Assembly: GCA_031280915.1 (NCBI GenBank)
Contig: JAITGC010000078.1
Coordinates: 116,069 to 149,153 of the forward strand
Length of the DNA stretch: 33,085 nucleotides
Source of the DNA: Desulfovibrio sp.
GTDB lineage: Bacteria; Desulfobacterota; Desulfovibrionia; Desulfovibrionales; Desulfovibrionaceae
Reading direction: 5' to 3'
Of the stretch, positions 14,192 through 19,067 are shown in pieces (position 1 is the stretch's first letter; every line of letters starts with the position of its first letter). The notes beneath the pieces were generated by a model. That model was not told where the DNA came from. It did not search any database and saw nothing but the letters and a program-made list of their open reading frames with translations. The position numbers were made by a program, and so were the translations under genes.

Positions 14192-15322
14192 TCAGATGTT
14201 GAGCGCGGCGGCGATCATCCCGCGAAAGCGGCTGAAGAGATAATGGGAGTCGTGCGGCCCGGCCGCGGCTTCGGGGTGGTGCTGCACGCTCATGACAGGT
14301 AGGCTTTTGTGCCGCAAGCCCTCCAGCGTCATGTCGTTGAGGTTGACATGGGTTGCCTCCACATCTTCCAGGTTGTCCAAAAGCACGTGAAAGCCGTGGT
14401 TTTGTGAGGAGATTTCCACCCGGCCCGTGGTAAGATCCTTGACCGGATGATTGGCCCCGTGATGGCCGAAGCGCAGTTTGCCTGTTCTGCCGCCGAGGGC
14501 GTGCCCTATGAGTTGATGGCCGAGGCAGATGCCCGTAACCGGAAAATTTTTGATGAGTTCGCCTATCAGGATGATTTCCCGCGTGAGGGCGGCCGGATCC
14601 CCTGGGCCGTTGGAGAGAAAAACAGCCTGCGCGCCGCTGGCCCTGGCCTGCTCCAGGTTGAAAAGGGGCGGGACGGCCAGCGGTTCAAAGCCGGCTTTGA
14701 CAAGCTCGCGCAAAATATTCCACTTTATGCCGTAATCGTAGACAAGAAGGCGTATCCCCGTGTTTTGCCAGGCATAGGAGCCGTCCGGGGCGAAATGGGC
14801 ATCCCCGGGGCCTTCGGTGGTCCAGGAGTAGGGTTTTTGCGCCGCCACAAAGGGTATCAGGTTCTGTCCCTCCATGGGCGGCAGAGAGCGGGCTTTTTCC
14901 TGCAGGGAAGCAGGGTTGATATCCCCGGTGGACATCATGCCGCGCATGGCCCCGTGGATGCGCAAGTGGCGCGTCAGAGCGCGGGTGTCCAGGCCTTCCA
15001 TGCCGGGGGCGCCGTTTTTCCGCAAAAAATCCGGCAAGGTCATGACGGAACGCCAGTTGGAGGGGCGTTTGCAGCATTCCTTGACCAGAAAGGCGCGCAA
15101 ATGCACTCCGGCGGATTCCATGTCTTCATTGTTTATGCCGTAATTGCCGATGAGCGGCCAGGTCATGCACACCATCTGTCCGTAGTAGGAGGGGTCTGTC
15201 AGCACTTCCTGATAACCTGTCATGCCGGTGTTGAATATGACTTCGCCGCCGGTCTCAAAATCGCCGGTAAAGGATTTGCCGTACAGGCTGAAACCGTCTT
15301 CCAGCGTGAGCAGGGCTTTCAT
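14192..15322 (-). CDS. carA: Carbamoyl-phosphate synthase small subunit
   Basis: GATase motif [18 protein letters not shown]-terminal [16 protein letters not shown]; 4-nt overlap with carB. Confidence 0.97.
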
Positions 15323-18567: not shown

Positions 18568-18617
18568 ATGTGTCTCGTGTGGATGCGGAAGATTTGCGAT
18601 AGTGTGCAAACTTTTGA

Positions 18618-18647
18618 AGTATAGTCATCGCCCCCCCCTCTCGTCAA
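18618..18647 (-). promoter_or_regulatory. Putative sigma-70 promoter for carB-carA: TTGACG-N18-TATACT with G8 in the spacer
   Basis: On the - strand: TTGACG AGAGGGGGGGGCGATGAC TATACT; about 50 nt upstream of the carB ATG. Confidence 0.5.
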
Positions 18648-18874
18648 TGTTTTTGCCGTGACCATGCCCAGGCTTTCGATGATCCTGGCCCAGTATTCCG
18701 ACGACGCACAGGCTTCCATACCCACCATGCATGCCGGGGGAGGTTGGCGAAAAATCGGGTAACGCCGGAGCGTGAAAGAGTACGCCGCAACACGGGTTTA
18801 CCTTTGGCGTCCACTCCGTAGACGGAAAAATTGTTCTTTGCCAAATCAATGCCGATGGTGGTAATGGTCTTCAT
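18645..18874 (-). pseudogene. IS110-family transposase remnant (N-terminal DEDD domain only, frameshifted)
   Basis: MKTITTIGIDLAKNNFSVYGVDAKGKPVLRRTLSRSGVTRFFANLP in one frame, VGMEACASSEYWARIIESLG in another; rest of transposase absent. Confidence 0.85.
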
Positions 18875-18958
18875 GGGACGGCCTCCTGCAAAGGTTATAT
18901 CTTTCCTTATGCATACCCGCTTTCGTCGGGCGGGGCCATCCCATCAGTTTACGCTTGA

Positions 18959-19067
18959 GATTGTCACTCAACGGCGAAGTGGATTCGCCTCGCGACAATC
19001 TTGCGGCAAGGATCGCAAGCAAATCCTTGCAGAGCAAATTATACATTTTCAATGGTAATTTGCTCTG
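18959..19067. repeat. Three consecutive inverted repeats, including a palindromic dispersed-repeat copy (19030-19067)
   Basis: GATTGTC/GACAATC (18959-19000) enclosing GGCGAA/TTCGCC; GCAAGGAT/ATCCTTGC (19006-19030); CAGAGCAAATTA/TAATTTGCTCTG (19030-19067). Confidence 0.8.

Follow-up and report, generated by a model that had tools for sequence, protein, structure and literature searches.

A run of eight G residues lies between the predicted −35 and −10 hexamers upstream of carB and carA, the genes for the large and small subunits of carbamoyl-phosphate synthase, in a Desulfovibrio genome. Its position raises the question of whether expression of a core biosynthetic operon might be tuned by homopolymer slippage, as the initial annotation of this 33,085-nucleotide stretch of DNA (hereafter, the window) had proposed. 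We consider it likely that the site is an ordinary inherited sigma-70 promoter of carB-carA, whose G8-containing spacer is lineage-specific, mildly mutable and near-neutral, and not a selected switch.

The window is part of a 149-kb contig in an assembly of 2.34 Mb (102 contigs, 87% complete) that resembles a metagenome bin. From their protein family matches, the two genes can be confidently assigned as carB and carA (Table 1). Upstream of the CarB ATG (18567–18565, minus strand), the sequence confirms the arrangement described in the initial annotation, i.e., TTGACG, an 18-nt spacer containing G8, and TATACT, the −10 box being 50 nt away from the ATG. When the whole 33-kb window was scanned, this tract proved to be its sole G/C run of at least eight bases. 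The hexamers match the sigma-70 consensus at 10 of 12 positions and their spacing falls within the criterion of 16–18 nt. They constitute the single sigma-70-like match between 18300 and 19200; however, shuffled sequences already yield 0.8 matches on average, so that the hexamers alone are weak evidence for a promoter. No known RNA motif was detected in the window at the gathering threshold.

Table 1. Coordinates of the features discussed. Plain numbers are window positions; entries beginning with C are contig positions in the genome containing the window (G000).
Feature	Position	Strand	Evidence or remark	Locus
carB, carbamoyl-phosphate synthase large subunit, 1082 aa	15319..18567	-	NCBIfam NF003671 (1660.9 bits) and TIGR01369 (1492.4 bits), both above cut-off	
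carA, carbamoyl-phosphate synthase small subunit	14192..15322	-	TIGR01368 (428.3 bits), above cut-off; start overlaps carB stop	
-10 hexamer TATACT	18618..18623	-	sequence; TAT[A/G][C/T]T in relatives	
Spacer AGAGGGGGGGGCGATGAC, 18 nt	18624..18641	-	sequence; 17 nt in four close relatives	
G8 homopolymer inside spacer	18631..18638	-	sequence; no counterpart upstream of carB in 30 relatives	
-35 hexamer TTGACG	18642..18647	-	sequence; invariant in G000, G051, G053, G055 and G056	
Truncated IS110-family 5' end (left end and start of frameshifted transposase, ATG at 18874)	18667..18947	-	75-76% identity to intact G007 copies	
Dispersed two-hairpin repeat, ~96 nt	18945..19040	-	~20 partial or full genome copies; fold z = -3.07	
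Adhesin C11 tract	C3:113686-113696		~2.4 kb left of window start	L248
Adhesin C15 tract	C40:16777-16791			L247
Adhesin C12 tract	C61:278-289			L249
C14/G14 run with same adhesin leader	C34:61-74		near contig end	L250
G14 inside hexapeptide acetyltransferase gene	C7:60803-60816		Pfam Hexapep; in frame at G14 length	L270
15-base C run a few bases upstream of response regulator ATG	C53:7810-7824		Pfam Response_reg	L267
G12 in reading frame of probable multi-pass membrane protein	C102:1339			L269

The carB relatives comprise a group of 79 genomes under one genus, and the four closest of these with readable DNA upstream of carB (G051, G053, G055 and G056) carry the same hexamers in front of the gene: TTGACG-N17-TATACT in G053, TTGACG-N17-TATGCT in both G055 and G056, and TTGACG-N17-TATATT in G051. 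Across the five aligned sequences, the entire −35 box is identical, as is the TAT of the −10 box, and the spacer is divergent at most positions. The distance from the −10 box to the ATG is likewise similar in three of the four relatives (51, 51 and 54 nt, compared with 50 nt in the window), whereas it is 83 nt in G055. It is this conservation at carB that makes the promoter credible and bears out its initial assignment to that gene; on these grounds it is a vertically inherited housekeeping promoter of predicted sigma-70 type. Among the more distant congeners fetched, most have a TTGAC-type box and a spacer of 16–18 nt upstream of carB, with many of the −10 matches being weak. A fifth near relative, G078, has a tRNA gene upstream of carB and no match to the TTGACG-N17 promoter. 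The upstream neighbors of carB vary further, with other genes in G055 and G056, and tlyA, which is the neighbor upstream of carB in the window, is located elsewhere in the relatives; conservation therefore begins close to the −35 box.

The G tract is not part of this inheritance. In each of the four relatives the spacer is 17 nt long and its G run never exceeds four, in contrast to the 18 nt and G8 of the window, so that the longer form is derived. Furthermore, the 170 nt preceding carB in 30 relatives contained no counterpart of the G8 run, the longest G/C run there being six. A scan of genome contigs for a second strain matched only more distant carB loci, the nearest named record among the matches being a Desulfovibrio metagenome-assembled genome with 70% protein identity, and viral contigs scanned by a pattern allowing variable G-run length gave no match. 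An inherited 17-nt spacer would most simply have reached 18 nt with G8 by the insertion of a single base, possibly through strand slippage. The initial annotation had pointed out that loss of one G would give a 17-nt spacer, and this is indeed the spacer length found between the same hexamers in all four close relatives.

How surprising such a tract is depends on the scale considered. Under a second-order Markov model of the window, 0.59 G/C runs of at least eight bases are expected per 33 kb, and at least one occurred in 44% of the simulations, so that the G8 run by itself is unremarkable. None of 400 simulated windows had a G8 in the spacer of a promoter-like pair in which neither hexamer had more than one mismatch; the combination is thus rare in any given window. 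The genome as a whole contains 72 G/C tracts of at least eight bases, a number that, relative to genome size, ranks among the higher ones in the genus. If these are placed uniformly, about 0.3 cases of such a tract in a promoter are expected by chance (72 tracts, 11 placements and about 1000 promoters, the promoter number being assumed), and more if tracts favor intergenic DNA. With 72 tracts available, about one falling in some promoter by chance would be unsurprising, and the coincidence of G8 with a promoter spacer is mild. When the other 71 tracts were examined, none fell within a spacer whose flanking hexamers had at most two mismatches in total, and the notion of a genome-wide class of G-tract promoters was dropped on this account. 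Sorting the tracts into coding and non-coding by composition was also abandoned as too weak, a G14 within a hexapeptide acetyltransferase gene having been called non-coding.

The excess of long G/C tracts indicates that slippage is clearly active in this genome. As judged from MutS1 alone, mismatch repair shows no indication of a defect: a full-length MutS1 close to those of the relatives is present on C41 (77% identity to that of G053). A second MutS1 (C38:1942-4596, L266) is 54% identical to the MutS1s of the genus, and the assembly also holds a second carA-carB operon (C35:11778-16499, L246; G+C 0.61) whose CarB is 52% identical to that of the window; the close relatives gave no further carB-like match. 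The second operon and the second MutS1 may have been acquired, or may belong to foreign contigs in the bin.

Several of the longer tracts lie in genes of a quite different kind. A set of RTX/BapA-like adhesin paralogues, whose Pfam BapA_N match is below threshold, has in common the leader MAD..L.RP..GQT and a poly-C run of 11, 15 or 12 bases at about codon 18–22. Across a tract of C11 or C15, leader and body fall into different reading frames; the C12 copy reads through its tract in frame but meets a stop later. Adhesin paralogues of G051 have C8 and C9 at similar places (L280, L283), and many paralogues have no tract. These adhesin genes are likely contingency loci, and the hexapeptide acetyltransferase is a candidate phase-variable modification enzyme. 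Together with the tract in the membrane protein (Table 1), these long runs (C11–C15, G12–G14) occupy classic contingency-locus targets.

Could the carB tract nevertheless be a true phase-variable promoter, in which slippage of G8 switches carBA between discrete levels and is kept by selection? Promoter spacers of 16–19 nt are usually active, and one of 18 bp is workable. Slippage of the carB tract would therefore be expected to have only a small output range: the G run probably slips now and then, modestly altering promoter strength (17 nt with G7, 19 nt with G9). Furthermore, a phase-variable promoter of the porA type would be expected to retain its tract across related lineages, and this tract is missing from all sister species read. 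G8 is also short compared with the C11–C15 of the adhesins, being among the shortest tracts of the genome, and the target is a biosynthetic housekeeping operon.

What speaks for such a switch is (i) the precedent of porA of Neisseria meningitidis, which, according to PMC3899988 (citing van der Ende 1995), has a poly-G run at the corresponding place, between −35 and −10, so that one-base slippage alters spacer length just as it would in the window; (ii) that loss of one G regains the ancestral 17 nt; and (iii) that slippage-based variation is plausible in this organism, given the long tracts in its surface-type genes, adhesin leaders among them. However, porA encodes an outer-membrane porin for which length variants and expression levels are demonstrated, while the G8 of carBA is known from one genome. 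A second precedent, fimX of Bordetella pertussis, resembles the window, as do other fimbrial promoters of that species, in that the tract is short and a single base matters there: fimX promoters whose C7/C8 tracts differ by one base show a 3.8-fold difference in transcript (PMC1891110), which makes a modest effect of the carB tract plausible. The fimX tract, though, varies among strains and sits between the −10 box and an activator site, whereas that of the window lies between −35 and −10. In the same B. pertussis study, C/G tracts longer than eight bases exceeded chance expectation, which places G8 at the margin. In a literature search of partial coverage, homopolymer promoter switching turned up neither for Desulfovibrio nor for carAB.

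Since conservation of the tract is lacking, a spacing of 18 bp is workable and about one chance promoter tract is to be expected from 72, phase variation is unsupported, and we regard a selected, porA-like switch as unlikely. It seems less probable still that carBA is under slippage-driven stochastic promoter control of a kind that would extend contingency-locus behavior from surface structures to nucleotide and arginine metabolism. Adaptive phase variation at carB is less likely than slippage of modest effect, and the G8 form is most likely near-neutral and tolerated.

A sequencing or assembly error, with a true spacer of 17 nt and G7, or a mixed population, would also account for the eighth G. 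Homopolymers are error-prone, the assembly has the fragmentation of a bin, and four of four relatives have the 17-nt spacer. In the same assembly, poly-G runs of up to 20 and 22 occur in G+C-rich stretches at the ends of C25 and C28 and the start of C34 (L200, L202, L205), and these look like assembly or sequencing artefacts. The carB tract, however, is situated in the middle of the 149-kb contig and does not reach the length at which short reads usually run into difficulty, and the spacer differs from those of the relatives at non-G positions too. We therefore think it improbable that the eighth G is an error.

Upstream of the inherited promoter lies the truncated IS110 copy, whose intact counterparts in G007 encode a protein matching Pfam PF01548 and PF02371, both IS110 transposase families. 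Another remnant, at C60, is 89–91% identical to that of the window and breaks off in the same zone. Homology to the element ends near 18667, in codons for ESLG, which leaves about 20 nt to the −35 box, and TTGACG is absent from the corresponding place of intact IS110; within the stretch read, none of the four relatives has an IS110 remnant upstream of carB. Although the remnant lies directly upstream of the promoter and in the same orientation, the suggestion that its insertion created the promoter is thus very improbable and was discarded, because the hexamers lie outside the IS homology and the −35 box, the −10 box and downstream sequence are common to the carB genes of four relatives that carry the promoter without IS110. 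Since the genes upstream of carB differ and tlyA is elsewhere in the relatives, a separate rearrangement would instead have placed tlyA, the two-hairpin repeat and the IS110 fragment just upstream of an existing promoter. The repeat adjoins the left end of the IS110 remnant and may be a REP-like target of the element.

The comparison with relatives thus sets the ancestral promoter apart from the adjoining IS110 remnant, and the carB site illustrates how, in a genome with many G/C tracts, a G run can arise within a promoter that was inherited. If slippage in the tract did switch carBA, core metabolism would be an unusual setting for homopolymer phase variation; the adhesin-like genes, with their longer tracts, are better candidates for real contingency loci than the G8 run of carB.
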